Position numbers and translations under genes: made by a program. From contig NZ_PJMS01000001.1 in assembly GCF_002846555.1 (NCBI RefSeq), positions 4,386,501 to 4,450,500 on the forward strand: a DNA stretch of 64,000 nt, given 5' to 3'. The notes beneath the pieces are model-generated. The model searched no databases. It saw only the letters and a program-made list of their open reading frames with translations, and was not told the origin of the DNA. Origin of the DNA: Aquimarina sp. MAR_2010_214 (GTDB taxonomy: Bacteria; Bacteroidota; Bacteroidia; Flavobacteriales; Flavobacteriaceae). Positions 22,344 to 44,638 of the stretch are shown here, piece after piece. How positions within the stretch are numbered: the first letter of the stretch is position 1; the number at the start of each line of letters is the position of its first letter.

Positions 22344-22370
22344 AATGGTGATTTAGTTTAAAATTATCGT

Positions 22371-22427
22371 TATTCAAATCCTCACAACTACTGGCTCGCC
22401 AAAAGTTTTATAATTGTCAGGGGGTTT
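22371..22427 (-). promoter_or_regulatory. Conserved leader hairpin, copy B
   Basis: The core on the minus strand is TAAAACTTTTGGCGAGCC, with GGCTCGCC at 22393-22400 on the plus strand. The arms ACAATTA and TAGTTGT pair over seven positions with one G-U, and outer CC/GG and AA/TT pairs extend the stem. The arm sequence differs from copies A, C and D, so the pairing is compensatory. The ATGAG start at 22343 is 50 nt below the core, through a conserved stretch ending AAATCACCATTATGAG. Confidence 0.7.
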
Positions 22428-26900: not shown

Positions 26901-29900
26901 ATTGCCAGAACTGTCTGTTACCGTCCAGGTTACTGTGGTATCTCCTAATGGGAAGATGGTTGGTGCATCGTTGGTGGTACTGGCTACTGCACAGTTATCT
27001 CCGGTAGTTGGTGTTCCTAAAGCAACACTACTCGCGGTACATAAACCAGCATCTACATTGACATTTACTGTAGCCGGACATGTGATCGTTGGATCAATGT
27101 TATCGGTTACGGTTACCGTTTGAGTACAGGTCGCTGTATTTCCAGAACTGTCCGTTACTGTCCAGGTGACTGTGGTATCTCCTAATGGGAAGATGGTTGG
27201 TGCATCGTTGGTTGTACTGGCTACTGCACAATTATCTCCGGTAGTCGGGGTGCCTAAAGCAACACTACTTGCAGTACATAAACCAGCATCTACATTGACA
27301 TTTACTGTAGCCGGACATGTGATTGTTGGATCAATGTTATCGGTTACTGTTACCGTTTGAGTACAGGTCGCTGTATTACCAGAACTATCCGTTACCGTCC
27401 AGGTCACTGTGGTATCTCCTAATGGGAAGATGGTTGGTGCATCGTTGGTGGTACTGGCTACTGCACAGTTATCTCCGGTAGTTGGTGTTCCTAAAGCAAC
27501 ACTACTCGCGGTACATAAACCAGCATCTACATTGACATTTACTGTAGCCGGACATGTGATTGTTGGATCAATGTTATCGGTTACTGTTACCGTCTGAGTA
27601 CAGGTCGCTGTATTTCCAGAACTGTCGGTTACCGTCCAGGTCACTGTGGTATCTCCTAATGGGAAGATGGTTGGTGCATTGTTGGTCGTACTGGCTACTG
27701 CACAGTTATCTCCGGTAGTTGGTGTTCCTAGAGCCACACTACTCGCGGTACATAAACCAGCATCAACATTGACATTTACTGTGGCTGGGCAACTGATTGT
27801 TGGATCAATGTTATCGGTTACTGTTACCGTTTGAGTACAGGTCGCTGTATTGCCAGAACTATCTGTTACCGTCCAGGTCACTGTGGTATCTCCTAATGGG
27901 AAGATGGTTGGTGCATCGTTAGTCGTACTGGCTACTGCACAGTTATCTCCGGTAGTTGGTGTTCCTAGAGCAACACTACTGGCTGTACATAAACCGGCAT
28001 CAACATTTACATTTACTGTAGCTGGACATGTGATTGTTGGATCAATGTTATCGGTTACTGTTACCGTCTGAGTACAGGTCGCTGTATTTCCAGAACTGTC
28101 GGTTACCGTCCAGGTCACTGTGGTATCTCCTAATGGGAAGATGGTTGGTGCATCGTTGGTGGTACTGGCTACTGCACAGTTATCTCCGGTAGTTGGTGTT
28201 CCTAAAGCAACACTACTCGCGGTACATAAACCAGCATCTACATTGACATTTACTGTAGCCGGACATGTGATTGTTGGATCAATGTTATCGGTTACTGTTA
28301 CCGTCTGAGTACAGGTCGCTGTATTTCCAGAACTGTCGGTTACCGTCCAGGTCACTGTGGTATCTCCTAATGGGAAGATGGTTGGTGCATTGTTGGTCGT
28401 ACTGGCTACTGCACAGTTATCTCCGGTAGTCGGGGTACCTAAAGCCACACTACTGGCTGTACATAAACCAGCATCAACATTGACATTTACTGTGGCTGGA
28501 CATGTGATCGTTGGATCAATGTTATCGGTTACTGTTACCGTCTGAGTACAGGTCGCTGTATTTCCAGAACTATCGGTTACCGTCCAGGTCACTGTGGTAT
28601 CTCCTAATGGGAAGATGGTTGGTGCATCGTTGGTGGTACTGGCTACTGCACAGTTATCTCCGGTAGTTGGTGTTCCTAGAGCAACACTACTGGCTGTACA
28701 TAAACCGGCATCTACATTTACATTTACTGTAGCTGGACATGTGATCGTTGGATCAATGTTATCGGTTACTGTTACCGTCTGAGTACAGGTCGCTGTATTT
28801 CCAGAACTATCGGTTACCGTCCAGGTCACTGTGGTATCTCCTAATGGGAAGATGGTTGGTGCATCGTTGGTCGTACTGGCTACTGCACAATTATCTCCGG
28901 TAGTCGGGGTACCTAAAGCAACACTACTGGCTGTACATAAACCGGCATCTACATTGACATTTACTGTAGCTGGACATGTGATCGTTGGATCAATGTTATC
29001 GGTTACTGTTACCGTTTGAGTACAGGTCGCTGTATTTCCAGAACTATCGGTTACTGTCCAGGTGACTGTGGTATCTCCTAATGGGAAGATGGTTGGTGCA
29101 TCGTTGGTCGTACTGGCTACTGCACAATTATCTCCGGTAGTCGGGGTACCTAAAGCCACACTACTCGCGGTACATAAACCAGCATCTACATTGACATTTA
29201 CTGTAGCCGGACATGTGATTGTTGGATCAATGTTATCGGTTACGGTTACCGTTTGAGTACAGGTTGCTGTATTTCCAGAACTATCGGTTACCGTCCAGGT
29301 CACTGTGGTATCTCCTAATGGGAAGATGGTTGGTGCATCGTTGGTGGTACTGGCTACTGCACAGTTATCTCCGGTAGTTGGTGTTCCTAAAGCAACACTA
29401 CTTGCGGTACATAAACCAGCATCTACATTTACATTTACTGTAGCCGGACATGTGATCGTTGGATCAATGTTATCGGTTACTGTTACCGTCTGAGTACAGG
29501 TCGCTGTATTTCCAGAACTATCCGTTACCGTCCAGGTGACTGTGGTATCTCCTAATGGGAAGATGGTTGGTGCATTGTTGGTGGTACTGGCTACTGCACA
29601 GTTATCTCCGGTAGTCGGAGTTCCTAAAGCAACACTACTGGCTGTACATAAACCAGCATCTACATTGACATTTACTGTGGCTGGACATGTGATTGTTGGA
29701 TCAATATTATCGGTTACTGTTACCGTCTGAGTACAGGTTGCTGTATTTCCAGAACTATCCGTTACTGTCCAGGTGACTGTCGTATCTCCTAATGGGAAGA
29801 TCGTTGGTGCATCGTTGGTGGTACTGGCTACTGCACAGTTATCTCCGGTAGTCGGAGTTCCTAAAGCAACACTACTCGCAGTACATAAACCAGCATCTAC

Positions 29901-32900
29901 ATTGACATTTACTGTGGCCGGACATGTGATTGTTGGATCAATATTATCGGTTACTGTTACCGTCTGGGTACAGGTCGCTGTATTTCCAGAACTATCCGTT
30001 ACTGTCCAGGTTACTGTCGTATCTCCTAATGAGAAGATCGTTGGTGCATTGTTGGTGGTACTGGCTACTGCACAGTTATCTCCGGTAGTCGGAGTTCCTA
30101 AAGCAACACTACTCGCAGTACATAAACCAGCATCTACATTGACATTTACTGTGGCCGGACATGTGATTGTTGGATCAATATTATCAGTTACTGTTACGGT
30201 CTGGGTACAGGTTGTTGTATTTCCAGAACTATCCGTTACCGTCCAGGTGACTGTGGTATCTCCTAATGGGAAGATCGTTGGTGCATCGTTGGTCGTACTG
30301 GCTACTGCACAGTTATCTCCCGTGGTTGGTGTACCTAAAGCAACACTACTCGCGGTACATAGTCCAGCATCAACATTTACATTTACTGTAGCTGGACATG
30401 TGATCGTTGGATCAATATTATCGGTTACTGTTACCGTCTGGGTACAGGTTGTTGTATTTCCAGAACTATCCGTTACTGTCCAGGTTACTGTCGTATCTCC
30501 TAATGGGAAGATCGTTGGTGCATCGTTGGTGGTACTGGCTACTGCACAGTTATCTCCGGTAGTCGGAGTTCCTAAAGCAACACTACTGGCTGTACATAAA
30601 CCAGCATCTACATTGACATTTACTGTGGCCGGACATGTGATTGTTGGATCAATATTATCAGTTACTGTTACGGTCTGGGTACAGGTCGCTGTATTTCCAG
30701 AACTATCGGTTACTGTCCAGGTTACTGTGGTGTTTCCTAATGGGAAGATCGTTGGTGCATTGTTAGTCGTACTCGCTACTGCACAGTTATCTCCCGTGGT
30801 TGGTGTGCCTAAAGCAACACTACTCGCAGTACATAAACCAGCGTCTACATTGACATTTACTGTGGCCGGACATGTGATTGTTGGATCAATATTATCAGTT
30901 ACTGTTACCGTCTGAGTACAAGTAGCTGTATTACCAGAACTATCCGTTACCGTCCAGGTTACTGTGGTATCTCCTAATGGGAAGATGGTTGGTGCATTGT
31001 TGGTGGTACTCGCCACTGCACAGTTATCTCCGGTAGTCGGAGTTCCTAAAGCAACACTACTGGCTGTACATAAACCGGCATCTACATTGACATTTACTGT
31101 AGCCGGACATGTGATTGTTGGATCAATATTATCAGTTACTGTTACGGTCTGAGTACAAGTAGCTGTATTTCCAGAACTATCGGTTACTGTCCAGGTTACT
31201 GTGGTATCTCCTAATGGGAAGATCGTTGGTGCATCGTTGGTGGTACTGGCTACTGCACAGTTATCTCCCGTGGTTGGTGTGCCTAAAGCAACACTACTGG
31301 CTGTACATAAACCAGCATCTACATTGACATTTACTGTAGCTGGACATGTGATCGTTGGATCAATATTATCGGTTACTGTTACCGTTTGTGTACAAGTAGC
31401 TGTATTTCCAGAACTATCCGTTACCGTCCAGGTGACTGTGGTGTTTCCTAATGGGAAGATCGTTGGTGCATCGTTGGTCGTACTGGCTACTGCACAGTTA
31501 TCTCCCGTAGTTGGTGTTCCTAAAGCAACACTACTGGCTGTACATAAACCAGCATCAACATTGACATTTACTGTAGCTGGACATGTGATCGTTGGATCAA
31601 TATTATCGGTTACTGTTACCGTCTGGGTACAGGTTGTTGTATTTCCAGAACTATCCGTTACTGTCCAGGTGACTGTCGTATCTCCTAATGGGAAGATCGT
31701 TGGTGCATTGTTGGTCGTACTGGCTACTGCACAGTTATCTCCCGTGGTTGGTGTACCTAAAGCAACACTACTGGCTGTACATAAACCAGCATCTACATTG
31801 ACATTTACTGTGGCTGGACATGTGATTGTTGGATCAATATTATCAGTTACTGTTACCGTCTGAGTACAGGTCGCTGTATTTCCAGAACTATCCGTTACTG
31901 TCCAGGTGACTGTGGTATCTCCTAATGGGAAGATCGTTGGTGCATCGTTGGTCGTACTGGCTACTGCACAGTTATCTCCCGTGGTTGGTGTACCTAAAGC
32001 AACACTACTGGCTGTACATAAACCAGCATCTACATTGACATTTACTGTGGCTGGACATGTGATTGTTGGATCAATATTATCAGTTACTGTTACCGTCTGA
32101 GTACAGGTCGCTGTATTTCCAGAACTATCCGTTACTGTCCAGGTGACTGTCGTATCTCCTAATGGGAAGATCGTTGGTGCATCGTTGGTCGTACTGGCTA
32201 CTGCACAGTTATCTCCCGTGGTTGGTGTACCTAAAGCAACACTACTGGCTGTACATAAACCAGCATCTACATTGACATTTACTGTGGCCGGACATGTGAT
32301 CGTTGGATCAATATTATCGGTTACTGTTACCGTCTGGGTACAGGTCGCTGTATTTCCAGAACTATCCGTGACTGTCCAGGTTACTGTGGTGTTTCCTAAT
32401 GGGAAGATCGTTGGTGCATTGTTGGTGGTACTGGCTACTGCACAGTTATCTCCGGTAGTCGGGGTGCCTAGAGCAACACTACTTGCAGTACATAAACCAG
32501 CGTCTACATTGACATTTACTGTGGCTGGACATGTGATTGTTGGATCAATATTATCAGTTACTGTTACGGTCTGAGTACAGGTCGCTGTATTTCCAGAACT
32601 ATCCGTTACCGTCCAGGTGACTGTGGTATCTCCTAATGGGAAGATGGTTGGTGCATTGTTGGTGGTACTGGCTACTGCACAGTTATCTCCCGTGATTGGT
32701 GTACCTAAAGCAACACTACTTGCAGTACATAAACCAGCGTCTACATTGACATTTACTGTGGCTGGACATGTGATTGTTGGATCAATATTATCGGTTACTG
32801 TTACCGTCTGAGTACAGGTTGTTGTATTTCCAGAACTATCGGTTACTGTCCAGGTCACTGTGGTGTTTCCTAATGGGAAGATGGTTGGTGCATCATTGGT

Positions 32901-35900
32901 CGTACTGGCTACTGCACAGTTATCTCCCGTAGTTGGAGTGCCTAAAGCCACACTACTGGCTGTACATAAACCAGCATCTACATTGACATTTACTGTGGCC
33001 GGACATGTGATTGTTGGATCAATATTATCGGTTACTGTTACCGTCTGGGTACAGGTCGCTGTATTTCCAGAACTATCCGTTACTGTCCAGGTTACTGTCG
33101 TATCTCCTAATGGGAAGATCGTTGGTGCATTGTTGGTGGTACTGGCTACTGCACAGTTATCTCCGGTAGTCGGAGTTCCTAAAGCAACACTACTGGCTGT
33201 ACATAAACCAGCGTCTACATTGACATTTACTGTGGCCGGACATGTGATCGTTGGATCAATATTATCGGTTACTGTTACCGTCTGGGTACAGGTCGCTGTA
33301 TTTCCAGAACTATCCGTTACTGTCCAGGTTACTGTCGTATCTCCTAATGGGAAGATCGTTGGTGCATTGTTGGTCGTACTGGCTACTGCACAGTTATCTC
33401 CCGTGGTTGGTGTACCTAAAGCAACACTACTGGCTGTACATAAACCAGCATCTACATTGACATTTACTGTGGCTGGACATGTGATTGTTGGATCAATATT
33501 ATCAGTTACTGTTACCGTCTGAGTACAGGTCGCTGTATTTCCAGAACTATCCGTTACTGTCCAGGTGACTGTCGTATCTCCTAATGGGAAAATCGTTGGT
33601 GCATCATTGGTGGTACTGGCTACTGCACAGTTATCTCCGGTAGTCGGGGTGCCTAGAGCAACACTACTGGCTGTACATAAACCAGCGTCTACATTGACAT
33701 TTACTGTAGCTGGACATGTGATTGTTGGATCAATATTATCGGTTACTGTTACCGTTTGTGTACAAGTAGCTGTATTACCAGAACTATCCGTGACTGTCCA
33801 GGTTACTGTGGTGTTTCCTAATGGGAAGATCGTTGGTGCATCATTGGTGGTACTGGCTACTGCACAGTTATCTCCCGTGGTTGGTGTGCCTAAAGCAACA
33901 CTACTCGCTGTACATAAACCAGCGTCTACATTGACATTTACTGTGGCCGGACATGTGATCGTTGGATCAATATTATCGGTTACTGTTACCGTCTGAGTAC
34001 AGGTCGTTGTATTTCCAGAACTATCCGTTACTGTCCAGGTGACTGTCGTATCTCCTAATGGGAAGATGGTTGGTGCATCGTTGGTCGTACTGGCTACTGC
34101 ACAGTTATCTCCGGTAGTCGGAGTTCCTAAAGCAACACTACTGGCTGTACATAAACCAGCATCTACATTGACATTTACTGTGGCCGGACATGTGATTGTT
34201 GGATCAATATTATCAGTTACTGTTACGGTCTGGGTACAGGTCGCTGTATTTCCAGAACTATCGGTTACTGTCCAGGTTACTGTGGTGTTTCCTAATGGGA
34301 AGATCGTTGGTGCATTGTTAGTCGTACTCGCTACTGCACAGTTATCTCCCGTGGTTGGTGTGCCTAAAGCAACACTACTCGCAGTACATAAACCAGCGTC
34401 TACATTGACATTTACTGTGGCCGGACATGTGATTGTTGGATTAGTAGTATCTTCAACAGTAAGAGTTACAGAAATTGAAGTTTCAGAAGTACACACATAT
34501 GTTGAGCTTGAAACAACAACGCGATATTGATTACCATTATCTGCTATCAAAGCATTTGTAATGTTTAATGTAGCCGTAGTTGTAGTACTATGAATTCCTG
34601 TATCTGTTAAATCATCCCAGGTGCTACCATTAAACAATTGCCATTGATAGGTATCTGCATTAGATGTCACAACAGTAAACGTTGTATTTGCACTTGGACA
34701 TATCGTCGAATCGGATGGTTGTGTCGTAATTGATGGAGCAACTCCGGCTGTAGTCACATTGATATTAGTACCTGTATACCCATCAGTTCCTGAAGTTACT
34801 ACTCCATTTCCGTCTACAGCAAGACCAGTACCAAAAGTACCGTTACCCAAGTATCCGTTAGTGTCACCATCGGTAAAACCTGCTTCAATAACATCATCAC
34901 ATCCATCTGCATCACTATCTAACTCTAAAAAATTATAATTACTATCCGAATCACTGTCCGCAACTGTATAATTTATGGTTCCGCTATTCTCACTTCCCGA
35001 TGCTTGAACAGCATCTGGTACTCCATCTCCACCAATAGCTCCAGATACAACTCCATTTACATGTGTTTGGTTATGCCCCGCTTCGACAGCATCATAAATT
35101 CCATCATTATCACTATCTAAATCCAAACGATCTACAATATTATCACCATCAGTATCTCTATCAAAACATAAGGCAAAAGAATTTGCTTTAAAAGCTAACC
35201 AGGAGTCATAAAGATTATCTCCGTTATCAGCAACTCCTATTTTAATTGTATTATTTCCTGCATTTAACACTGCAGAAAAAGTTATGGTAGAAGTAAAACC
35301 ATCTGCTTCAATATTAACGGCTGTAGGGTCAGTTTCATTATCAACATATGATCCGCTATCTACTGTATTATTTACGGTATCTATACTTAATTGTGCACCA
35401 GAAGGTGTTAATGCTAAATTGGTTCCGTTAATAAAAATTTTGGGAGCATCGTTTAGGCCAGAATTCACATAATCGTTATATTCTTCTGAAGCGAAAACAA
35501 ACTGACCTGAGATCACTGTTTCTGCGGGAATATTAACTACTATTTCAAGGCTGGCAACATCAAATTCTGCACTTCCTCCACCAAAATCGGCATCTTTACC
35601 TCCTCCGGCAGCACCAGTGCCATTAATCCCATCTCCTAATGCATTAGGGGAAGAGAATTGATTAGATAAATTATCATCTAATTCAAGAATATTACCTGAA
35701 GAAAAGATAATTCCTCTATCAAATCCAAGAAATGCATTTAAAGCTCCTCCACTACTTGTTACCCGATCACCGTCATTAAATGTTCCTATTTGCGCTACTG
35801 CTCCACTACCTTCATTGACTGTAGCTGATACCAAGGTAAGATCAGAATTAGGAGCAAATAATAAGTTAGCTAAGGTAGTAGCATTATTTTGTGCTGTAAT

Positions 35901-38900
35901 TTCAAAAGTTGTATTTGCATCATCTACCAATTCAACTCCAAATGTTCCTCCTCCCAGATCACATTCATCTCTATCCAGAATTCCGTCATTATCATCATCT
36001 AAATCAACAGAATCCATAATACCATCACTATCTGAATTTACGGTTAAAACCCCAGGTCCGGCAGGATCAATAATTTGCCCATCTGAGACCGTATCATCAC
36101 CAAAAACACCATCTGTAAGATTATAGGAAGCCGTAGCAATTGTTCTCCCTCCTATTGTAGTTGTATTTAATGTAGTTGTAAAATCTTGATATATATCTGA
36201 TGCTCCTCCAGGTGTATTCGGACCATATTTACGATATGTAAAACCTGCTAAAGAATTAGTAATATGCCAATAATAGGTTACAGTTACATCATCTCCCGGT
36301 GTTATACAATCTAAAGTAAAGTCTACCAATCCATATGGGTAATGATGTGTTGCATCATTTGCAGCCAGCTCAGATTCTAAAACAGTGCTTATACTAGCGA
36401 TCTGAAAACAAACTCCAGTAGTTTCGATTGTTACATATCCTGTACCATCTGCTATTGGTATAGAGACTACATTTCCTTGTGAAGAATCTAATATTCCATC
36501 TCCATTTCCATCTCCTCCATTAGGTCCTTCATCTTCTACTGTTCCTACAATACCATCACCATCTTCACAACCGGTAGATACCGCATTATTTGTTACTGCG
36601 GCTACTACTCCTGTATTATATGCTGCTGCAACCACTAATCCATTAGAATTAACAGCACCTGTAGATACTGTTAGTGGTTCTGTAGCTGCATTCCATGGAT
36701 TATAAACACCTCCATTAGCGCCATCGGCATTCCAATCATTGTATGCTTCATTAGCGTCACTACAACCATCTGCATCACTATCTAAAGATTCAAAATCTGC
36801 ATCTCCAGCTGCATCTGTGTTTGTTATTGTATAATTAAGTACTCCGGATTCTGCAACCGTTTCTATACTATCGAAAAGCCCATTATTTCCTGATCCCGTA
36901 TCGGCTCCATTAATTCTTCCATTACTGGTAGCAAATCCATGACCTGATTCTATAGCATCGTAGATACCATCATTATCACTATCCAGATCATAAAAATCGG
37001 GGACTCCATCTCCATCGGTATCAAAAGCAGTTTCGACTGCTCCATCTGCATTCCCTGTTCCTGCATCGGCATCATTATCATCAAGATAAGCAAAGATATT
37101 ATCTGTATCTCCATCTGCAAAGGGATCAGATGGGGACTCATTTAAATTAGGAATCCCGTCATTATCTACATCCAGATCCCATGGATCTAAAACGAGATCG
37201 CCATCCAGATCAAAAGCAGAAGATGCGGTAGGGCAAGCAAATCCATCATTACTGGTTGTGGCAATTGTATTATTTAAAAGTGTTACAGAAGGTGTTGCTG
37301 TGGTATAATCGTTAACCAGATACATCCCTCCATTATTATAGGAAACATATAAGCGGTTTTCTGCATCAGTAAATGCAGCTCCAAAATTGGTTGCTGTAGG
37401 AGTTCCCAAACCTGAAACTTCTGTTTTAACAAGTGAAGTAAGATCCCAATTAATTAATCTATTATTGTTACTAACACCGTATAATTTTCCGTTGATAAAA
37501 ACTACATCATTAGTATTTTTATTTGTTCCTCCTGTAAAAGCAACCGTAACTACTGCAGGTGAACCTCCAGCCGGTAAGGTGGATAAATTTTCTATTTTAT
37601 CATAATGTTTTCCTCGATTAATCCATAGGTTATCACTATCATCTACGTCTCCGGATATACCGCCACCGCTCATATTAGTTAATGCTCCTAAATCCTGAAA
37701 AGCTCCATCCACTCCTATACGAAGTAAATGATTATTAATAGGGCTTGAACCTCCTCCTTTACCAATAGCATACACATAATTATCAATTCTATTATACCCT
37801 GTTGCGTTATATAATTGACTCACTGCAATGGGATCAGAATATTCTCCTGTTATGGCATCGTAACTTTTTAACTCTCCAGAGATAATTTGAAAAAAGTTTT
37901 GAGGGCAACTAAATGGAGTAAGCGAGCATGCTGCTGATACTACTCCACCATTAATATAATCTGCATTTGGAGTGGTATACCCATCTATTGCACTAGTCAC
38001 TACTCCGTCTTCATTAACGGTTACGACAATAGGCCCTAAAATGCCGTCACTACTTTCATCTGTAAAACCAGCCTCTCGTACATCACTACACGAATCTCCA
38101 TCACTATTTGTAGATTGAAAATTAGAATTTCCTACCGTATCTGTATCTGCTATTGTATAATTAATTATACCAGAATCTACTATAGTTTCCAGACCATCGA
38201 AAAGCCCATTTGTACCTGCTCCTGTATCCTGACCGGTAATCCTACCATTGGTATGTGGTAAACCATGTCCCGCTTCAACCACATCATAAATCCCGTCATT
38301 ATCACTATCAAGATCAAAAAAATCGGGAACTCCATCTCCATCGGTATCAAAAGCAGTTTCAATAACCCCATCTACATTACCTGTTGCTCCATCTGCATCA
38401 TCATCATCTAAATATGCAAAAACCATATCTCCATCTACATCAGCAAAAGGATCAGATGGAGATTCGTCTGTATTTGTTAAACCATCACCATCTACATCTA
38501 AATCTAAAGGATCTAATATATCATCACCATCCTGATCTATAGGTGAAGGTGCCGAGGGGCATGAAAACCCATCATTACTGGTTGTAGTAGCTGTAGAATT
38601 CAAAAATGATGATGTTGGTGTTCCTGTTGTATAATCATTAATCAAATACAATCCACCATCATTATACGATACATACAAACGATCCTTATCATCGGTAAAT
38701 GCCGCTCCAAAACCAAGAGTTGTAGTTGGGGTACTTAAACCTCCTACTACCGTTTTGATTGATGTATCCAGATCCCATATAACTAGCTCTGCAGTTTTAT
38801 TGACCCCATATAGTTTTCTATTAATATGAACAACATCATTAACTTCGCTAGTCGGACCGGTAAAAATAACTGTTATAACCGCAGGGGACCCTCCTATCGG

Positions 38901-39404
38901 AAGGGTTGACAGGTTTTCGATCCTGTCATAATGATCACCCCTATTGATCCATAAATTATCACTGTCATCAACATCTCCCGATATACCGCCAGATCCCATA
39001 TTGGTTAACGCTCCAAGATCGGCTATTGATCCATCTGAATCAATACGAATCAAATGCCCATTTATGGTACCTGCTTTTCCTATAGCATATACAAAATTAT
39101 CAACTGGATTATATCCTGTAGCATTATAGAGATCATTCGTGCTAATCGGTGCCGAATATTCTCCTGTAACCGCATCATAACTTTTTAATTCTCCACTAAT
39201 GACCTGATAGAATGTGGAAGGACAACTAAACTGACCATATCCAAAAGAACCGATCAGCATAAAGATCACACCATATACTATAGATAAATTGTTACTTTTT
39301 TTATGTATAAAAGCATTTTTTTCTACTCTACAAAAACCTAACAATCTATTTATCAAGGTAAATATGAGTTGTATTAGAAATAAGAATCGTGTATTGATTT
39401 TCAT
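23952..39404 (-). CDS. Giant T9SS type B adhesin with DUF6923, TSP3 and HYR repeats
   Basis: 5150 residues, predicted to be surface-exposed. The N-terminus is long and basic, with the hydrophobic export segment only at about residues 40-57 (VYGVIFMLIGSFGYGQ), so either an extended signal peptide or a later start (codon 49) is used. Then come two copies of a DUF6923-like propeller (about 60-320 and 497-760), each followed by TSP3 repeats; a choice-of-anchor L domain (about 1145-1415); an Ig-like domain (about 1560-1645); 32 nearly identical 79-residue HYR domains (about 1645-4172); two diverged HYR-like units; five more HYR domains (about 4324-4718); a final diverged HYR; a DUF11-like domain; and a type B sorting domain (TPNGDGINDEF, IFNRWGVKVF, RAGYLYINR). 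It begins 6 nt after the small membrane ORF at 39411 and is followed by its PorP/SprF partner. Confidence 0.95.
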   Translation of the reverse strand: MKINTRFLFLIQLIFTLINRLLGFCRVEKNAFIHKKSNNLSIVYGVIFMLIGSFGYGQFSCPSTFYQVISGELKSYDAVTGEYSAPISTNDLYNATGYNPVDNFVYAIGKAGTINGHLIRIDSDGSIADLGALTNMGSGGISGDVDDSDNLWINRGDHYDRIENLSTLPIGGSPAVITVIFTGPTSEVNDVVHINRKLYGVNKTAELVIWDLDTSIKTVVGGLSTPTTTLGFGAAFTDDKDRLYVSYNDGGLYLINDYTTGTPTSSFLNSTATTTSNDGFSCPSAPSPIDQDGDDILDPLDLDVDGDGLTNTDESPSDPFADVDGDMVFAYLDDDDADGATGNVDGVIETAFDTDGDGVPDFFDLDSDNDGIYDVVEAGHGLPHTNGRITGQDTGAGTNGLFDGLETIVDSGIINYTIADTDTVGNSNFQSTNSDGDSCSDVREAGFTDESSDGILGPIVVTVNEDGVVTSAIDGYTTPNADYINGGVVSAACSLTPFSCPQNFFQIISGELKSYDAITGEYSDPIAVSQLYNATGYNRIDNYVYAIGKGGGSSPINNHLLRIGVDGAFQDLGALTNMSGGGISGDVDDSDNLWINRGKHYDKIENLSTLPAGGSPAVVTVAFTGGTNKNTNDVVFINGKLYGVSNNNRLINWDLTSLVKTEVSGLGTPTATNFGAAFTDAENRLYVSYNNGGMYLVNDYTTATPSVTLLNNTIATTSNDGFACPTASSAFDLDGDLVLDPWDLDVDNDGIPNLNESPSDPFADGDTDNIFAYLDDNDADAGTGNADGAVETAFDTDGDGVPDFYDLDSDNDGIYDAIESGHGFATSNGRINGADTGSGNNGLFDSIETVAESGVLNYTITNTDAAGDADFESLDSDADGCSDANEAYNDWNADGANGGVYNPWNAATEPLTVSTGAVNSNGLVVAAAYNTGVVAAVTNNAVSTGCEDGDGIVGTVEDEGPNGGDGNGDGILDSSQGNVVSIPIADGTGYVTIETTGVCFQIASISTVLESELAANDATHHYPYGLVDFTLDCITPGDDVTVTYYWHITNSLAGFTYRKYGPNTPGGASDIYQDFTTTLNTTTIGGRTIATASYNLTDGVFGDDTVSDGQIIDPAGPGVLTVNSDSDGIMDSVDLDDDNDGILDRDECDLGGGTFGVELVDDANTTFEITAQNNATTLANLLFAPNSDLTLVSATVNEGSGAVAQIGTFNDGDRVTSSGGALNAFLGFDRGIIFSSGNILELDDNLSNQFSSPNALGDGINGTGAAGGGKDADFGGGSAEFDVASLEIVVNIPAETVISGQFVFASEEYNDYVNSGLNDAPKIFINGTNLALTPSGAQLSIDTVNNTVDSGSYVDNETDPTAVNIEADGFTSTITFSAVLNAGNNTIKIGVADNGDNLYDSWLAFKANSFALCFDRDTDGDNIVDRLDLDSDNDGIYDAVEAGHNQTHVNGVVSGAIGGDGVPDAVQASGSENSGTINYTVADSDSDSNYNFLELDSDADGCDDVIEAGFTDGDTNGYLGNGTFGTGLAVDGNGVVTSGTDGYTGTNINVTTAGVAPSITTQPSDSTICPSANTTFTVVTSNADTYQWQLFNGSTWDDLTDTGIHSTTTTATLNITNALIADNGNQYRVVVSSSTYVCTSETSISVTLTVEDTTNPTITCPATVNVNVDAGLCTASSVALGTPTTGDNCAVASTTNNAPTIFPLGNTTVTWTVTDSSGNTATCTQTVTVTDNIDPTITCPATVNVNVDAGLCTASSVALGTPTTGDNCAVASTTNDAPTIFPLGDTTVTWTVTDSSGNTTTCTQTVTVTDNIDPTITCPATVNVNVDAGLCTASSVALGTPTTGDNCAVASTTNDAPTIFPLGNTTVTWTVTDSSGNTATCTQTVTVTDNIDPTITCPATVNVNVDAGLCTASSVALGTPTTGDNCAVASTTNDAPTIFPLGDTTVTWTVTDSSGNTATCTQTVTVTDNIDPTITCPATVNVNVDAGLCTASSVALGTPTTGDNCAVASTTNNAPTIFPLGDTTVTWTVTDSSGNTATCTQTVTVTDNIDPTITCPATVNVNVDAGLCTASSVALGTPTTGDNCAVASTTNNAPTIFPLGDTTVTWTVTDSSGNTATCTQTVTVTDNIDPTITCPATVNVNVDAGLCTASSVALGTPTTGDNCAVASTTNDAPTIFPLGNTTVTWTVTDSSGNTTTCTQTVTVTDNIDPTITCPATVNVNVDAGLCTASSVALGTPITGDNCAVASTTNNAPTIFPLGDTTVTWTVTDSSGNTATCTQTVTVTDNIDPTITCPATVNVNVDAGLCTASSVALGTPTTGDNCAVASTTNNAPTIFPLGNTTVTWTVTDSSGNTATCTQTVTVTDNIDPTITCPATVNVNVDAGLCTASSVALGTPTTGDNCAVASTTNDAPTIFPLGDTTVTWTVTDSSGNTATCTQTVTVTDNIDPTITCPATVNVNVDAGLCTASSVALGTPTTGDNCAVASTTNDAPTIFPLGDTTVTWTVTDSSGNTATCTQTVTVTDNIDPTITCPATVNVNVDAGLCTASSVALGTPTTGDNCAVASTTNNAPTIFPLGDTTVTWTVTDSSGNTTTCTQTVTVTDNIDPTITCPATVNVNVDAGLCTASSVALGTPTTGDNCAVASTTNDAPTIFPLGNTTVTWTVTDSSGNTATCTQTVTVTDNIDPTITCPATVNVNVDAGLCTASSVALGTPTTGDNCAVASTTNDAPTIFPLGDTTVTWTVTDSSGNTATCTQTVTVTDNIDPTITCPATVNVNVDAGLCTASSVALGTPTTGDNCAVASTTNNAPTIFPLGDTTVTWTVTDSSGNTATCTQTVTVTDNIDPTITCPATVNVNVDAGLCTASSVALGTPTTGDNCAVASTTNNAPTIFPLGNTTVTWTVTDSSGNTATCTQTVTVTDNIDPTITCPATVNVNVDAGLCTASSVALGTPTTGDNCAVASTTNDAPTIFPLGDTTVTWTVTDSSGNTTTCTQTVTVTDNIDPTITCPATVNVNVDAGLCTASSVALGTPTTGDNCAVASTTNDAPTIFPLGDTTVTWTVTDSSGNTTTCTQTVTVTDNIDPTITCPATVNVNVDAGLCTASSVALGTPTTGDNCAVASTTNNAPTIFSLGDTTVTWTVTDSSGNTATCTQTVTVTDNIDPTITCPATVNVNVDAGLCTASSVALGTPTTGDNCAVASTTNDAPTIFPLGDTTVTWTVTDSSGNTATCTQTVTVTDNIDPTITCPATVNVNVDAGLCTASSVALGTPTTGDNCAVASTTNNAPTIFPLGDTTVTWTVTDSSGNTATCTQTVTVTDNIDPTITCPATVNVNVDAGLCTASSVALGTPTTGDNCAVASTTNDAPTIFPLGDTTVTWTVTDSSGNTATCTQTVTVTDNIDPTITCPATVNVNVDAGLCTASSVALGTPTTGDNCAVASTTNDAPTIFPLGDTTVTWTVTDSSGNTATCTQTVTVTDNIDPTITCPATVNVNVDAGLCTASSVALGTPTTGDNCAVASTTNDAPTIFPLGDTTVTWTVTDSSGNTATCTQTVTVTDNIDPTITCPATVNVNVDAGLCTASSVALGTPTTGDNCAVASTTNDAPTIFPLGDTTVTWTVTDSSGNTATCTQTVTVTDNIDPTITCPATVNVNVDAGLCTASSVALGTPTTGDNCAVASTTNNAPTIFPLGDTTVTWTVTDSSGNTATCTQTVTVTDNIDPTITCPATVNVNVDAGLCTASSVALGTPTTGDNCAVASTTNDAPTIFPLGDTTVTWTVTDSSGNTATCTQTVTVTDNIDPTITCPATVNVNVDAGLCTASSVALGTPTTGDNCAVASTTNDAPTIFPLGDTTVTWTVTDSSGNTATCTQTVTVTDNIDPTISCPATVNVNVDAGLCTASSVALGTPTTGDNCAVASTTNNAPTIFPLGDTTVTWTVTDSSGNTATCTQTVTVTDNIDPTITCPATVNVNVDAGLCTASSVALGTPTTGDNCAVASTTNDAPTIFPLGDTTVTWTVTDSSGNTATCTQTVTVTDNIDPTITCPATVNVNVDAGLCTASSVALGTPTTGDNCAVASTTNDAPTIFPLGDTTVTWTVTDSSGNTATCTQTVTVTDNIDPTITCPATVNVNVDAGLCTASSVALGTPTTGDNCAVASTTNDAPTIFPLGDTTVTWTVTDSSGNTATCTQTVTVTDNEAPVANVNPLADVIGECTATVIAPTATDNCGGIITATTTDPTSYTVIGTYTITWTYDDGNGNTSQQTQTVIVQDTGIPVPDVNPLPDVVGECIATITTIPTATDGCGGATTINGTTTDPLTYTTQGTFTVTWNYDDGNGNVVQQIQTVIVDDTIDPTIVCPADVSVNVDAGLCTASSVALGTPTTSDNCAVASTTNDAPTIFPLGDTTVTWTVTDSSGNTATCTQTVTVTDNINPTISCPATVNVNVDAGLCTASSVALGTPTTGDNCAVASTTNNAPTIFPLGDTTVTWTVTDSSGNTATCTQTVTVTDNIDPTITCPTTVNVNVDAGLCTASSVALGTPTTGDNCAVASTTNDAPTIFPLGDTTVTWTVTDSSGNTATCTQTVTVTDNINPTITCPATVNVNVDAGLCTASSVALGTPTTGDNCAVASTTNDAPTIFPLGDTTVTWTVTDSSGNTATCTQTVTVTDNINPTISCPATVNVNVDAGLCTASSVALGTPTTGDNCAVASTTNNAPTIFPLGDTTVTWTVTDSSGNTATCTQIVTVIDNIDPVVTGCPSDIVQNANVNTCNTVVSWTPPTATDNCTNPLIVSSTHNPGDVFPVGTTTVIYTFSDASGNSDTCTFDIVVPTVAVANNDIIVINGTTGGDSVNIVEANDLLDCSPVILGTNVVITGVTDSDSGDGVSLDPITGIVTVLPNTMPGEYIINYTLCSVTTPVVCDDAIAVISVVIANDISNLALTKTASYVDVNGDDIPNEGDEIQYTFTIENTGNVDITNIVLNDPLPGIVVVGDPIDLVPGETDTDSFTATYVLTEEDIRSGSVSNQATVIGQNPNGLDISDLSDDPLNDTNIDLDNDGDFEDETVFIIVPEDIIIYTGITPNGDGINDEFRIMGLSDFPKNTLQIFNRWGVKVFEQDGYEQPGVRFFKGASSGRQTINGKEELPVGTYYYVLEYENASGVHKSRAGYLYINR
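25252..26436 (-). repeat. Second HYR block, 5 units of 237 bp
   Basis: Five 79-codon HYR units (VNVDAGLCTASSVALGTPTT core) continue the large block after an interruption of about 450 bp that encodes two diverged HYR-like units. The interruption marks either an insertion into an older array or the boundary of array expansion. Confidence 0.9.
26887..34470 (-). repeat. First HYR block, 32 units of 237 bp
   Basis: Counting unit ends every 237 bp from 27123 to 34470 gives 32 units. The protein is almost invariant, differing mainly at N/D positions (NNAP or NDAP, LGNTT or LGDTT) and at A/T in GNTATC or GNTTTC. Silent positions vary more than replacement positions. Each unit keeps two cysteine-rich motifs (ITCPA and DNCAV), which may form disulfides outside the cell. 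Exact copy number depends on a correct assembly. Confidence 0.95.
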
Positions 39405-39410
39405 AAGCTA

Positions 39411-39890
39411 TTATGATAAAATTGTTTTATTATTCTGAAGAGATTTATTAGAATCTATACCTACTCTACTTTTAGAAATCTGTAATAATGTATAATCTTG
39501 TTGAATTGGCTTTACATATTTCTGAAAAGAACTATGAATAGTACTTACTACACTATTTTTTGAGGTATGAGTAGTACTGCATATATTATTTTTATGTGTA
39601 AACGTGTATATATGAGAATCTATACTATAATTATGAGCTGTACTATTTTCTATATGTATCTTGGCATGATTATTATTTTTAAGTAAGAGAGCAGAAGAAG
39701 ACTTTAAAAATGAGTATGCTATAAATGAATATAATACCAATAGAAGAGTAATCACTCCCATCAAAATTATGATGTTATAGTTGGATAGTGTATCTATTTT
39801 TCGAACATAATTCGTATAGATACCAGAAAAATTATCTTTTATAGAAGAAGACCTTTGTACATCTGTTGATGCAAAAAAATAAAACCTCAT
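39411..39890 (-). CDS. Small single-pass membrane ORF in leader module C
   Basis: 159 residues with ATGAG at 39890, 51 nt below the conserved leader hairpin and 6 nt upstream of the giant adhesin gene, so translational coupling is likely. One strong hydrophobic segment lies at about residues 42-66 (NIIILMGVITLLLVLYSFIA). It is preceded by a short hydrophilic N-terminus and followed by a Ser/Thr/His/Asn-rich tail with no recognised domain. A frameshifted homologue sits in the same position before the other giant gene (22037-22343), so the ORF belongs to the cassette and is not random. It could be a membrane-bound regulator or assembly factor of the adhesin, or a leader whose translation controls the giant gene. 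I do not recognise the family. Confidence 0.6.
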   Translation of the reverse strand: MRFYFFASTDVQRSSSIKDNFSGIYTNYVRKIDTLSNYNIIILMGVITLLLVLYSFIAYSFLKSSSALLLKNNNHAKIHIENSTAHNYSIDSHIYTFTHKNNICSTTHTSKNSVVSTIHSSFQKYVKPIQQDYTLLQISKSRVGIDSNKSLQNNKTILS

Positions 39891-39920
39891 AATGGTTGAT
39901 TTAATATTAAATTGATCGTT

Positions 39921-39975
39921 ATTCAGATCCCTGGAATTGGCGGCTCGCCAAAAGTTTTACAATTCCGGGATTGTT
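39921..39975 (-). promoter_or_regulatory. Conserved leader hairpin, copy C (best paired)
   Basis: The arms ATCCCTGGAATTG (39927-39939) and CAATTCCGGGAT (39960-39971) pair over 12 positions with one bulged base. They close on an apical region whose minus-strand sequence is TAAAACTTTTGGCGAGCC plus two bases. It has the strongest stem of the four copies. The downstream stretch GAATAACGAT to AAATCAACCATTATGAG is shared with copies A and B. Confidence 0.75.
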
Positions 39976-40618
39976 ATTCTATATTCTCATGTATGCATAT
40001 TATCAAATAAAAAACATCTTTTCTTTTCACATCCCTATACAACAAAATGTCATTTATTAACAGATTCTGAAATCACATGTATTGTGCTTTCAAAATGGTA
40101 TTATATATTTTGCTTATAAGAAAATCAGACGAGAAAAACATCGTCACACGTTTTATGAAAGAAATAAAAGTAGTGTTATCCATAAGCTATTTATTTTATC
40201 GATTAAAGTTCACTAATTATAATATCTACGGGCAAATAAATATCATACTATATCACAGCTATATTACTGTAATTTTCTATCTAAAATAGCCATCAAAAAA
40301 GAACACATTTGAGACATAGAGGGGTAAGAAATAAAATGTCTGGTGTAATTTTTTTTATAAGCGATATCTATTTTTAAGTAATGTGTTTACGTTGTACATT
40401 TATTAACATTATAAATGTATACATAAAACTTTGATTATGAATATTTTAAAACACCAAAATAATTACGGTTTTACCATAAAAATAGGTTGAAATCATCAAT
40501 TTTAAGGACGAAAGACAGGTTTTTGAGAAAATCTCACAAATTCACATTATGGTTTCTAAAAAAATAATCAATACTTATTTAACCTTGATTATGTATTGAG
40601 AAGCCCAATTATTATATA
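39976..40618. other. Gene-free stretch upstream of leader C
   Basis: About 640 nt of AT-rich DNA. Small frames here (for example one starting at 40077) show no domain or homologue in the window. Blocks shared with other leader copies: ATAAAAGTAGTGTTATCCAT at 40163, GGGGTAAGAAA at 40321-40331, AACATTATAAATGTATACAT near 40407, and ACGGT-TTT-ACCAT at 40465-40477. Several of these resemble blocks at similar distances before copies A, B and D. Confidence 0.5.
40465..40477. promoter_or_regulatory. Candidate operator ACGGT-N3-ACC (C copy)
   Basis: ACGGTTTTACCAT is a near-palindrome with 5-bp arms. Versions occur at 1903-1915, at 44639-44651 (other orientation) and, as a perfect palindrome ACGGTAAAACCGT, at 49976-49988 before the LytTR gene. 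A shared regulator binding here is inference. Confidence 0.4.
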
Positions 40619-40700: not shown

Positions 40701-43700
40701 TTACATCTTGATTAATCGCTTTTGAATTATAGTATCACCAACACTTATTTTTATAAAATACTGACCTGTAGATAAATCTTGAGTAGGCACTTTAATTCTT
40801 TCTTGATTTGTGTATGATTTCAAGAATATTGATTGTCCTAAATTATTAAATATTTCTACTTCTGTATTTTGATCACTACTTTGTTTTGAAGTAATATATA
40901 TCTGGTTTCCAAATGGATTTGGATATATCGAAAACATATCTTCTTTAGATATCATTTCTTCTTCTAATGCTTGCTCATCTGCTTGTGTTTCGGATTGTAC
41001 TTCTGCTTCTGTATTTACATCATTAACCATTGTTGTACTGGTCATCGAAGCGTTAGGGGTACTGCATCCATTAATTACCACATCATCTATATATACCCAA
41101 TCTGAATTACCAGATGCATCTGCTCTAAATCGAATTTGAGTAGTTGCAGTAAAAGGACCTGGGATTACCACCTGATCATTATAACGTTGATTGTTTACAA
41201 ATTCATCAGACTGGTTCCACTCTTCTACCGTAGTAAAATTAGCTCCGCCATCTGTTGATATCTGCAACCAGAAATCTTCATTATTATTATCCATACTTCT
41301 ACAGTAATATGAGAAATCAATCGTCAATTCTTCATAGCTTGTCATATCAAAATTAAAAGTAGTCATTACTGATGTAGATGTATTATCTCGTAATCGTATA
41401 CAGTATGTTCCCGAATTTGCATACGCTGCATCGCTAGAACTTCTTCTTGCATCAGATCCACCACCTGACCATACTCCCCACCCGGATTCAAAATCTTCTG
41501 AGTTGATAACAGCATATGTACATTCTGATGGATTAGGATCTGGAAGACACCCTGACGTGATAACTTGCGCTGCAGAAAGTGCAAAATCATAAACAACCGC
41601 TGCATCCATTTTTCCTGTATAAAAATTATTTGCGGTTTCTCCATAACTATCTTTTTTCTGTACACCGCCAATTCCTCCTGATCCTATATGTGTAGGAACA
41701 GAACTTGGTGCAGCACTGCTAGAAGCAGCAGAAACACCATCAATATATAAGCTATGGCTAGTACTTCCTCCATTATACACTACAGCAACATGGTGCCAAT
41801 CTCCATCATTTGGAAAAGCTACACTGTGACTATCAGAAACCGTAGCGCTATTTCTTACTATAGACTCGAGGTTGGTTCCATTCAACCTCAATACAACACC
41901 ACTAATCCCTCCTCCTTCTTCAAAAAGATTCTGGATACCAGACAAAGCAGTTGGTTTTATCCACATAGCAACACTTCTTTGCGACATCGATGCAATCAAA
42001 AATGGTCCTGGGTTTTGGCTATATTGTATTTTAGTAGCTCCATCAAATACAGCAGATCGATCTCCTTCTTTAAAATCTACTGTATCATAGGTTAATGCTC
42101 CTATAGTAGAAAGAGGATCATTATTACTTGCAGAAGCATCATTTGCATCTATACCAACATCAAAATTCCAAAGTGCCAAATATGTATCTGGCTCAACACA
42201 ACTAACAACAGATGGATTGATCTGGATTATTTCTGGTAACGGAACCGTAAGTCCACTACTTCTAAATGTGGGTAACGGAGCCGATATATTAATAAGATAG
42301 TTGCGAAGATCAGTACTTAGATCATTTGCTATAGTTAATGTTGCATTATCAGGACTTCCTGATAATAAATTCGTAGCTTCACCAATATCGGTAATCAGGT
42401 TATACATTTCATAAGAAGCGGTTTCATAATTATGAATCAATTTATAGTCTCCTTTTCGTATAATAGATACTGGTCTTTGATCTCTTTTAGAATCAATCAG
42501 ATATCCAGGAAAGTGCCAATAGATCGCATCTCTGTTTAAATTAGGATTAGTACCTGTTAGCATAGCCCATTGACTTACCCCATCGATATCATATCCTGTT
42601 GGTAATGTCCCTCCTGCTGCTTCAACCACTGTTGGATACAGATCAAAAGCAACAATAGGAGTATTATTAATTGTTCCTGTATTAGCCAATAAACCTTCAG
42701 ACCATGCAATAGTTACTGATCGTACACCGCCTTCATAATGCTCTCCTTTCATTCCTCTTAGCGGACCATTATCATCTGTTCCGATTGCGCCACCATTATC
42801 AGAAATAAAGTACACCAATGTATTTGCAGATAACATATGGCCAGGATTTCTGGGATCTGCCGTTGTTTTTAGATAATCGACAAGCCTACTAATGGTTTGA
42901 TCCATTCCTTCTGCAATTGCTGCTTGAGCAATATTTGTATGTCCCATCTGACTAGGGTTCGTATTATTTTTAGCTACATATTTGGCATATAAATCAGGCC
43001 TTGCATTTGCCTGACCCCAAGGGCCATGTATAGCATAGTTACTAAAATGCATAAAAAATGGAGATGTATTATTTGCATTCATAAAATCGATTGCGGCATC
43101 TGCCATTGCATCGGTTACGTGTTTTGCGGTTCCGTCTAAAGAACTATCTCCTGCAAGAGCCATAGATTCACTTAATGTATAAGGTGCTGCATATGGATCC
43201 AGTTCTGGACCTATTTTACTGTGGAAAGTCCAAACCCCGCCAGATTGCGAAGCAAAATAACTTCCCGGACTTCCCGGAGAACCACCTCCATAATTGAAAT
43301 CAAATCCCTGATCGGTAGGTGAATTACTCATACTTCCACCAGAATGATATTTTCCAAAATGAGCTGTTGTATATCCACTTGTTTTTATGGTTTCGGCTAT
43401 CGTAATCGCACTAGCCGGAATTTCATCTTCTCCATTAGAGATCCCCTGACTAGGCCCTACTAATAATGTAGAACTCCCTCCTCTATTTAAACCATTTACC
43501 GCAAATACATTATTATCTGGTCTTGAAGCATATTGCCCACTTAAAATTGCAGCCCTTGTGGGTGCACAATTTGCTCCGTTTACATAAGCCTGCGGAAATG
43601 CGATACCTTGAGTAGCCAATGTTTCTAAAGTTGGCGTCTCATAAAAGTCACTAGGGTTATTAAGATTAGTGGCTCCTGTACTTACCTGTGACCACCCCAT

Positions 43701-43802
43701 ATCATCAGCAATGATAACCACAATATTTGGAGATTGAGAATAGATTGAACTACTAACACCAATACAGAGTAGCAGTACTAAAAATTTGGTTGTTGTTTTC
43801 AT
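40701..43802 (-). CDS. Secreted sulfatase with LamG domain and T9SS type A sorting domain
   Basis: 1033 residues. A signal peptide (about 1-23, ending SIYSQ) is followed by a type I sulfatase domain (about 24-510). The domain has the metal-binding IIADDMGW stretch and the C-A-P-T-R motif at Cys79 (CAPTRAAILSGQY), the cysteine that a formylglycine-generating enzyme converts to the catalytic residue. Then come a concanavalin-like LamG domain (about 545-750, with SVAMWIKP and DGDWHHVAVVYNG), a second jelly-roll domain (about 770-920), an acidic linker and a type A T9SS sorting domain (FSIYPNPFGNQIYI, GQYFIKI, KRLIKM). It probably removes sulfate esters from marine polysaccharides outside the cell. 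No polysaccharide lyase or SusCD pair is nearby. Leader hairpin D lies about 290 nt upstream. The substrate cannot be read from the sequence. Confidence 0.93.
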   Translation of the reverse strand: MKTTTKFLVLLLCIGVSSSIYSQSPNIVVIIADDMGWSQVSTGATNLNNPSDFYETPTLETLATQGIAFPQAYVNGANCAPTRAAILSGQYASRPDNNVFAVNGLNRGGSSTLLVGPSQGISNGEDEIPASAITIAETIKTSGYTTAHFGKYHSGGSMSNSPTDQGFDFNYGGGSPGSPGSYFASQSGGVWTFHSKIGPELDPYAAPYTLSESMALAGDSSLDGTAKHVTDAMADAAIDFMNANNTSPFFMHFSNYAIHGPWGQANARPDLYAKYVAKNNTNPSQMGHTNIAQAAIAEGMDQTISRLVDYLKTTADPRNPGHMLSANTLVYFISDNGGAIGTDDNGPLRGMKGEHYEGGVRSVTIAWSEGLLANTGTINNTPIVAFDLYPTVVEAAGGTLPTGYDIDGVSQWAMLTGTNPNLNRDAIYWHFPGYLIDSKRDQRPVSIIRKGDYKLIHNYETASYEMYNLITDIGEATNLLSGSPDNATLTIANDLSTDLRNYLINISAPLPTFRSSGLTVPLPEIIQINPSVVSCVEPDTYLALWNFDVGIDANDASASNNDPLSTIGALTYDTVDFKEGDRSAVFDGATKIQYSQNPGPFLIASMSQRSVAMWIKPTALSGIQNLFEEGGGISGVVLRLNGTNLESIVRNSATVSDSHSVAFPNDGDWHHVAVVYNGGSTSHSLYIDGVSAASSSAAPSSVPTHIGSGGIGGVQKKDSYGETANNFYTGKMDAAVVYDFALSAAQVITSGCLPDPNPSECTYAVINSEDFESGWGVWSGGGSDARRSSSDAAYANSGTYCIRLRDNTSTSVMTTFNFDMTSYEELTIDFSYYCRSMDNNNEDFWLQISTDGGANFTTVEEWNQSDEFVNNQRYNDQVVIPGPFTATTQIRFRADASGNSDWVYIDDVVINGCSTPNASMTSTTMVNDVNTEAEVQSETQADEQALEEEMISKEDMFSIYPNPFGNQIYITSKQSSDQNTEVEIFNNLGQSIFLKSYTNQERIKVPTQDLSTGQYFIKISVGDTIIQKRLIKM

Positions 43803-44042: not shown

Positions 44043-44087
44043 TACTTGATGTGTATTGTTTCTAAATTATAAATAGTATTTCTATTC

Positions 44088-44135
44088 CAGATACTGCTTT
44101 TGTCGGCTCGCCAAAGTTTTACAGTTGCAGCGTTG
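44088..44135 (-). promoter_or_regulatory. Conserved leader hairpin, copy D
   Basis: The core TAAAACTTTGGCGAGCC is intact on the minus strand (GGCTCGCC at 44105-44112). Arms pair CTGC (44094-44097) with GCAG (44127-44130) and TGT with ACA around an internal loop. It lies about 290 nt upstream of the sulfatase ATG, so the sulfatase transcript probably carries it in its 5' untranslated region. Confidence 0.6.
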
Positions 44136-44638
44136 TTTTATATCTTGTTTTTATAACATTCTATAATTATAACAAACTGGTTCACATTTTTAATGCATAT
44201 GTAATATACTGTCTCATATTTTTCAAGAAATCCTATAATTAGTTATATCAATTTCTTTTAGATCCGAAAAAAAATCAGATCCAACATAAATAGCATAGAT
44301 GGTGTACAGGTGGTAAAAAGATGACTTAAAAAATATTTGCATCACCCTTAGTAAGAAAAAAGTAAATTTAGTCATAAGTAGAATAATTTAATTAATATCA
44401 AAAAAATTAGTTCATTAATCTAAACATGTGATTGGGTACATGATTAGTATTATTTACATTATGACAATTGTACTTGATTATAGTATGTATAAAAAAGACG
44501 TATTTAGTAACTGGGGTAGATGCTACTGTCTTCGACAACTAAACTATCGTATATCAAGATTTTTATTAAGTTTTTTTTAACATTATAAATATATGTATAA
44601 AACTTTGATTAACAGCAATTTAAATCCTCAAAACAAGT

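Follow-up and report, generated by a model that had tools for sequence, protein, structure and literature searches.

A structured RNA element ahead of giant surface-protein genes and behind a two-component system in Aquimarina

The Csr/Rsm circuit consists of a two-component system, a decoy RNA and a leader motif near the start codon, the hairpin-loop motif of CsrA/RsmA being A(N)GGA. Processive antitermination of the LoaP/RfaH/UpxY type uses ops or hairpin leaders. To our knowledge, little is known about post-transcriptional control in marine Bacteroidota. Csr systems have been reviewed (PMC3856055), and a conserved flavobacterial small RNA, Rfp18, has been described in Flavobacterium psychrophilum, with predicted targets that include secreted proteins and an adhesin (PMC9723704).

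The element described here, which occurs four times in the window (the whole stretch of 64,000 nucleotides of Aquimarina sp. MAR_2010_214 that was analysed), is almost certainly a real RNA family that has gone undescribed. As in the Csr/Rsm systems (Gac, with CsrA/RsmA and decoys of the CsrB/RsmY type), an RNA copy lies beside a two-component system, and adhesion-type leaders and a putative sRNA carry a common hairpin-loop motif near the start codon; however, the loop is UUUGGCGAGCC or a near variant and not A(N)GGA, each copy carries one motif instead of many, and the decoy action is here a proposed one. CsrA (PF02599) was not found in any of 19 genomes, the own genome included, with a control match in 3 of 14 named genomes, and it was rejected as the partner. 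With the cis-regulatory leaders of Rfam, riboswitches among them, the element shares the general features of a covarying structure 5' of ORFs and a near-fixed spacing to the AUG, but it has no credible match in Rfam 15 and also occurs without an ORF behind it. Like the leaders of LoaP/RfaH/UpxY antitermination it stands ahead of very long surface-related genes, whereas no specialised NusG tracks it and it is also found 3' of a regulator operon. Rfp18 is likewise a flavobacterial RNA with adhesin and secreted-protein genes as predicted targets, but it is compared here by its description, which in the excerpt concerns predicted base pairing and notes no common leader motif (PMC9723704). The element was not found described in the accessible parts of the open-licence literature on Aquimarina and flavobacterial small RNAs, riboswitches, T9SS adhesin leaders and sRNA decoys.

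The sequence-only reading of the window had singled out a loop word, TAAAACTTT(T)GGCGAGCC, at four minus-strand places. It is present at 1465-1449, 22409-22393, 39958-39942 and 44121-44105, within two bases of the positions first reported, the word searched for having 17 bases, so that two copies with four Ts are given without their first T. In 100 dinucleotide shuffles the word matched 0.10 times on average, and none of the 100 reached four; the arm pairings quoted for copies A to D are also in the sequence. What had been seen as a four-copy hairpin does occur four times in the window, but the conserved unit, of about 93 nt, is larger than the loop and arms of these copies, and the surrounding genome (5.98 Mb, a single contig) holds six of them, the two others at C1:278913-279004 and 74601-74695. 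In this element a covarying stem carries the near-invariant loop AAAACUUU(U)GGCGAGCC and is followed by a tail, CUGAAUAACGAUU..AACCAUUAUG, which usually ends on a start codon. In an alignment of 47 copies the 5' flank, AAAAACAAC, is rich in A, the stem reads CCCCGC..GCAGGG and is extended by UUGU/ACAA as its second part, and the sequence 3' of the loop is CUGAAUAACGAUURAUUUAA...AAAUYAACCAUUAUG. Chance was rejected as a source of the motif, the 11-mer CTTTGGCGAGC occurring 109 times in 50 genomes of the genus, compared with 18 for the pattern read backwards.

Covarying arms had been taken as the signature of a functional RNA, and the covariation holds in larger alignments, of 47 sequences and of 114 rows, giving strong grounds for that conclusion. 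RNAalifold, applied to a MAFFT alignment of the 47 sequences made without structure, yields 12 pairs and shows compensatory changes in 7. Among 114 distinct rows, in an alignment that was fitted to the model and so favours pairing, and that includes three weak matches (L291-L293), double-sided changes are seen in all 12 pairs, 94.4% of cells pair versus 84.3% in shuffles (0/500 as high), and 38-54% pair when the partners are slid by 1-3 columns. Support for another stem, within the tail, is weak, its arms pairing in 68.4% of cells versus 65.5% in shuffles (50 sequences). The loop itself, which had been proposed to be invariant, is near-invariant: UUUGGCGAGCC is the commonest form among model matches (76 of the 115 copies read), and GGCGAGCT, GGCGAGCA, GGCGAGTC, GGAGAGCA, GUAGAGCA and others also occur. 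Because the 47 sequences of alignment A1, the source of model R1, were picked by the exact loop pattern and had to carry a tail-like word, loop invariance in A1 exists by construction, and the true variation has been taken from the model matches. One sequence from Anaerolineales (L067) was removed from A1 as chance, and L291-L293 (family matches, E 0.004-0.01) were excluded from the class counts and from model R2.

Upstream of the element, every position between -90 and -1 has at most 0.13 bits (102 non-redundant flanks), and conservation sets in abruptly at the AAAAACAAC flank. Since the upstream sequence is not conserved, the unit is an RNA, and a promoter box at a fixed distance is ruled out. 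The onset of conservation at this flank would also suit an RNA-processing or stability site, where RNase cleavage or 5'-end protection separates or protects transcripts, and such a site would account for positions both before long mRNAs and after the regulator operon; as it would account neither for the conservation of the tail up to the AUG nor for the frames kept open behind it, this explanation appears very improbable.

Comparison with Rfam 15, which had been suggested together with the original claim, gave no credible match for the copies, so a known Rfam family is ruled out: no window copy reaches the gathering threshold of any family, copy C has no match at E<=5, and for five of the six genomic copies the surrounding loci returned one lncRNA match, with an E of 1.2 and away from the element. 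The only Rfam match in the window is a cobalamin riboswitch at 62073-62372 (-), with 74.7 bits.

The proposal that the copies head surface-protein transcripts stands, as far as the downstream genes are concerned, for B, C and D and fails for copy A (all features of the window given below lie on the minus strand). Copy C (39884..39980; covariance model score 86.1 bits, E 2.1e-17) has the stem AUCCC.GGAAUUG/CAAUUCC.GGGAU, the loop UAAAACUUUUGGCGAGCC and the tail CUGAAUAACGAUCAAUUUAAU..AAAUCAACCAUUAUG, with a predicted fold of -17.3 kcal/mol. Its AUG is the start of a 159-aa ORF without a Pfam family (39411..39890), for which 10 homologous proteins were found, the named ones all 'hypothetical protein' and from Aquimarina where the organism is given. 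This ORF stops 6 nt ahead of the start of a giant adhesin of 5150 aa (23952..39404), whose last 2000 residues were scanned and which has HYR repeats and a CHU_C type IX secretion signal, and a PorP/SprF gene lies behind it (22918..23874). The arrangement around copy B (22337..22431; 73.6 bits, E 3.4e-14) is similar, with an 86-aa ORF starting at its AUG (22083..22343), a giant adhesin of 5164 aa with DUF11 repeats and a CHU_C type IX secretion signal (6332..21826, last 2000 residues scanned) and another PorP/SprF gene (5304..6260). The small ORF of this copy (22037-22343, -) diverges from its relatives after about residue 33, and their membrane segment, LLGTYSFIAYSFLE, is found, slightly changed, as a separate ORF behind copy B; because this segment sits in another frame, the small ORF looks frame-disrupted.

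Copy D (44050..44142; 80.3 bits, E 6.5e-16) keeps the stem and the loop, has a divergent tail and ends without an ORF; downstream of it lies a sulfatase with a laminin-G domain and a Por_Secre_tail T9SS signal (40701..43802). Copy A (1393..1486; 106.8 bits, E 1e-22) is followed by a 119-aa ORF which starts at its AUG (1040..1399) and whose open frame is kept in relatives, by a conserved intrinsic terminator (947..987) and by a gene with the Pfam domain SpoU_methylase, which we take to be trmH. A second conserved segment, GAAATATAGTAATTCTTTATCTTTTTTACGGACTTACCGTACTTTTTTTATCACTTTCTTAAC, is located at 1221..1283, with a terminator-like hairpin at 1257-1243; it is shared by the trmH class and one adhesin leader, L230, and many kinase-linked copies have a related form of it. 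Upstream of trmH, in the window (947-1020, -) and in L201, L240 and L242, the terminator AACCYYCCGTTNTTAGGGGTAATTNCGGGRGGTT is preceded by a word like CATTTTGACGATGTGTTTACTT, one or the other being present twice in some species, and both together are possibly an attenuator of their own.

The end of the element is an AUG or GUG in 91 of 100 non-redundant copies. Frames of at least 60 codons run from this start codon in 62 of the 91, compared with 0 and 2 times in the other two frames; in shuffles, frames from the element end average 8-20 codons. The test has two limits: of the ATGs within 21 nt it took the one with the longest frame, and the TGA inside ATGA frequently closes the +1 frame. Such frames are distributed by class, being found in 44/49 giant, 17/20 trmH, 0/14 regulator-linked, 0/7 sulfatase and 1/10 other copies, so that 61 of the 69 adhesin-type and trmH-type copies have an AUG-opened frame of this length. 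In five copies (L265, L287, L289, L360 and L362) the giant ORF itself starts on the AUG of the element; three of them are within the 49 giant-class copies, L360 and L362 being newly fetched from other genera. Two to four tandem copies, about 200-700 nt apart, are seen in L266, L287, L288 and L289, and in L287 and L289 the last of them lies directly on the start codon of the giant ORF.

The median dN/dS of the small ORFs is 0.25 for type B and 0.39 for type C (six sequences each), indicating purifying selection, and 0.55 for the trmH type, indicating a weak constraint on amino acids. An ORF of about 83-140 codons (1040-1399 (-) and its orthologues) is nevertheless open in 17 of 20 trmH-type loci and, taking into account that it is kept open despite this weak constraint, translation itself may be what matters. 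The gap between the small-ORF stop and the first in-frame ATG of the giant frame could be measured in 41 adhesin leaders, and in 15 of them it is at most 30 nt.

The 117 copies considered, obtained from 120 model matches in fetched loci by leaving out three weak ones, comprise 60 before a frame of at least 600 codons that starts within 2.4 kb, 23 of the trmH class, 18 behind one response regulator, 8 before a sulfatase and 8 elsewhere. With a 900-codon limit, the 100 non-redundant copies are divided into giant (49), trmH (20), regulator-linked (14), other (10) and sulfatase (7), four rows having been reassigned manually. L206 and L210, with their regulator outside the 1.7 kb examined, went to the regulator class, and L226:10684 and L264:1532, by size, to the sulfatase class. 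The distribution with respect to genes is non-random, in agreement with the original proposal. Frames of at least 600, 900 and 1200 codons start within 2.4 kb of 72, 64 and 44 of the 117 copies, versus 134, 47 and 9 of 1200 background positions taken every 500 nt on both strands in 20 stretches spaced evenly along the own genome, the copies coming from related genomes and being mutually non-independent. The giant proteins outside the window, whose ends mostly fall beyond the fetched stretches, would presumably be T9SS substrates as well.

Genes of 15 kb, as found behind copies B and C, invite the idea that the element lets the polymerase pass terminators in very long operons, by an antitermination or attenuation logic like that of put, LoaP or RfaH. 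A hairpin of approximately TTACGG-NNNN-CCGTAA followed by T-rich sequence does lie inside the leader ORF in many trmH-class copies and in L230, being flagged by a terminator scan in a few copies, and a candidate terminator of -9.1 kcal/mol was found for window copy B. However, copies C and D of the window and many adhesin-class and sulfatase-class leaders have no candidate terminator in the scan, others having weak ones, and among 50 genomes searched a single NusG match was obtained in 11 element-bearing ones (G177, G304, G309, G325, G326, G329, G334, G343, G346, G354 and G358). A specialised NusG was discarded, as paralogues do not track the element in the 50 genomes, and antitermination is on the whole improbable.

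A covariance model was built and searched, as had been advised, with matches in 35 of 57 Aquimarina genomes at E<=0.1 and in 33 of 57 at E<1e-4, and the exact-core pattern was found in 29 of 66 genomes of the genus. At the family level, model R1 matched 9 of 299 genomes at E<=0.01, 6 of them convincingly, and model R2 10 of 397, 9 of them convincingly, the new ones being G384, G395 and G426; convincing copies beyond Aquimarina belong to five genera (g37, g132, g139, g149 and g195). In a class draw of 295 genomes the matches were the own genome, G384 and one weak one. Stricter filters, under which weak copies can be missed, were applied whenever a search covered more than 40 genomes. The borderline genus matches in G331, G344, G313 and G343 (E 0.04-0.08) are not taken as finds, nor are those in G373 (0.009) and G700 (0.006). 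Among the at least 115 stretches matched, most of those outside Aquimarina resemble chance in coding DNA, and the named contigs with a full element are, among the matches listed, mostly from Aquimarina. Since matches are few in the family-wide and class-wide sets, this is a narrow RNA family, seen so far in one bacterial family, which we infer to be Flavobacteriaceae. One element that resembles the kinase-linked copies (L085), almost identical to those of Aquimarina, stands on a contig named 'Bacteroidia bacterium isolate 6_bin.65', which is probably a bin resembling Aquimarina.

A repeat or mobile element that spreads and has no regulatory role could also give rise to several copies per genome, of which there are up to six, some in tandem (L266, L287, L288, L289). 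The identities, between pairs chosen by context, point in the other direction, since 13 of 17 cross-species comparisons of the same locus are 84-99% identical (the others 83, 77, 63 and 63%), against 49-88% for the ten pairs that the copies of the own genome form with each other. The ranges do overlap, as two of four comparisons of D orthologues give 63%, one of three of C orthologues gives 77%, and one paralogue pair of the own genome reaches 88%. The higher identity locus by locus indicates vertical inheritance, and ORFs are kept open from the AUG of the element. Thus, the element is probably not a repeat, and functionless spreading is an extremely improbable account of it. Integron attC sites and REP-like repeats, also considered, are probably not the explanation.

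A distinct class of copies, called here class 4, lies downstream of a histidine kinase (HATPase_c) and response regulator (Response_reg) pair and has no ORF at its end. It is present in 20 of 33 element-bearing genomes, 18 of them identified by the regulator end seen upstream, plus G307, where regulator and element are at the ends of different contigs, and G360; the matches in the other 13 include no class-4 copy. An orthologue of the response regulator (E<=2e-94) was detected in 21 of 50 genomes, and in 17 of the 21, G360 included, an element on the same strand follows within about 1.7 kb, in four of the 17 at most 15 nt past the regulator stop. In G347 the core CUUUGGCGAGC and a terminator are all that remains, no element was seen downstream of the regulator orthologue in G349 and G310, and one class-4 copy (G318) retains the hairpin only. 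Co-transcription of element and regulator is likely in some loci, judging from their arrangement, and may not extend to others, the distance from the regulator stop running from 0 to about 1.66 kb. Of the 20 class-4 loci 18 were aligned, all but L209, which nearly duplicates another, and L286, the G318 copy in its reduced form. The element hardly varies in this alignment, whereas the middle part of the locus is variable, though frequently hairpin-like; conservation returns in a 3' segment around ACAATATAGTAAGAAGCTTTTAAATAATTACGGTTTCCCGTAA, which in some of the sequences is followed by a T-run. The terminator scan flagged this hairpin in only a few. The trmH-class ORF contains a segment related to that around ACAATATAGTAAGAAGCTTTTAAATAATTACGGTTTCCCGTAA, as does one adhesin leader (L230).

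These copies bear on whether the element is a riboswitch, that is, a metabolite aptamer switching the downstream start codon. The leader position, the strongly conserved loop on a stem of free sequence and the near-fixed distance to the AUG would be in keeping with one. Nevertheless, class-4 copies lie behind a regulator gene and end without an ORF, the downstream genes have a surface location in common and not a pathway, and a single hairpin loop with a weakly paired tail offers little for a small-molecule pocket, which makes a riboswitch decidedly improbable.

It is tentatively proposed, with somewhat less than even confidence, that the element is the leader site of a post-transcriptional regulator and that the kinase-linked copy is its decoy, in a logic like that of Csr/Rsm. 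This would be a new family of cis-acting leader RNA with an additional copy acting in trans. In the folded leader transcript, the loop AAAACUUU(U)GGCGAGCC would be displayed on a stem whose sequence is free, and 3' of it the conserved AU-rich stretch would end on the start codon of the operon's first ORF, either the gene of a small protein before the giant surface-protein gene or, in five copies, the giant gene. A putative regulator, most likely an RNA-binding protein, would recognise the loop and set translation or early elongation of the operon, upwards or downwards. The class-4 copy would be a 3'-UTR-derived or stand-alone sRNA titrating the same putative regulator, and the two-component system could thereby set adhesin output. 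A shared binding partner is favoured because a copy of the same sense cannot act as an ordinary antisense. As 13 of the 33 genomes have no class-4 copy, the decoy would not be obligatory in every system, and control of an adjacent AUG cannot be the sole use of the element, given that the sulfatase class keeps stem and loop without an ORF at the element's end (0/7) and that the copy of G318 is reduced to the hairpin.

The wider proposal, that Aquimarina and its relatives have independently evolved an Rsm-like circuit in which a decoy titrates a putative RNA-binding protein and switches surface attachment, appears somewhat unlikely. If true, a two-component system would be linked to a decoy that copies the leaders of giant adhesins as far as the start-codon region, without their open frame. 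What is gained is a defined RNA family, a covariance model and a gene set made up of giant surface proteins, secreted sulfatases and one two-component system, with which the control of surface attachment and polysaccharide attack becomes directly testable, and an RNA-binding regulator would be implied.

A contact between RNAs, in place of a protein, has also been considered, because GGCGAGCC can pair with itself (GGC-GA-GCC, including tandem G.A pairs) and leaders could thereby dimerise or kiss the class-4 RNA. An NMR structure of the (rGGCGAGCC)2 duplex has been published (SantaLucia and Turner 1993, cited in PMC10730710). The predicted self-duplex reaches -10.0 kcal/mol for the octamer GGCGAGCC and -13.6 for the whole loop, and the octamer is present in 19 of the 19 class-4 loops read. 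However, the centre of the duplex is broken in several copies, by GGAGAGCA and GUAGAGCA in other genera (-2.3 kcal/mol) and by GGCGAGAC within the genus (-4.6 kcal/mol with GGCGAGCC), and AAAACUUU is about equally conserved yet lies outside the duplex. Since loop variants of other genera break the self-pairing, dimerisation is less likely as a general mechanism, and this explanation is considered unlikely. Finally, upstream of loci of the copy D type (L252, L241, L272 and others) there is another response regulator-like gene, whose product ends in ..FSIAKADDQ.LLEEARKRGF, and sulfatase-class and several adhesin-class elements lie near it.
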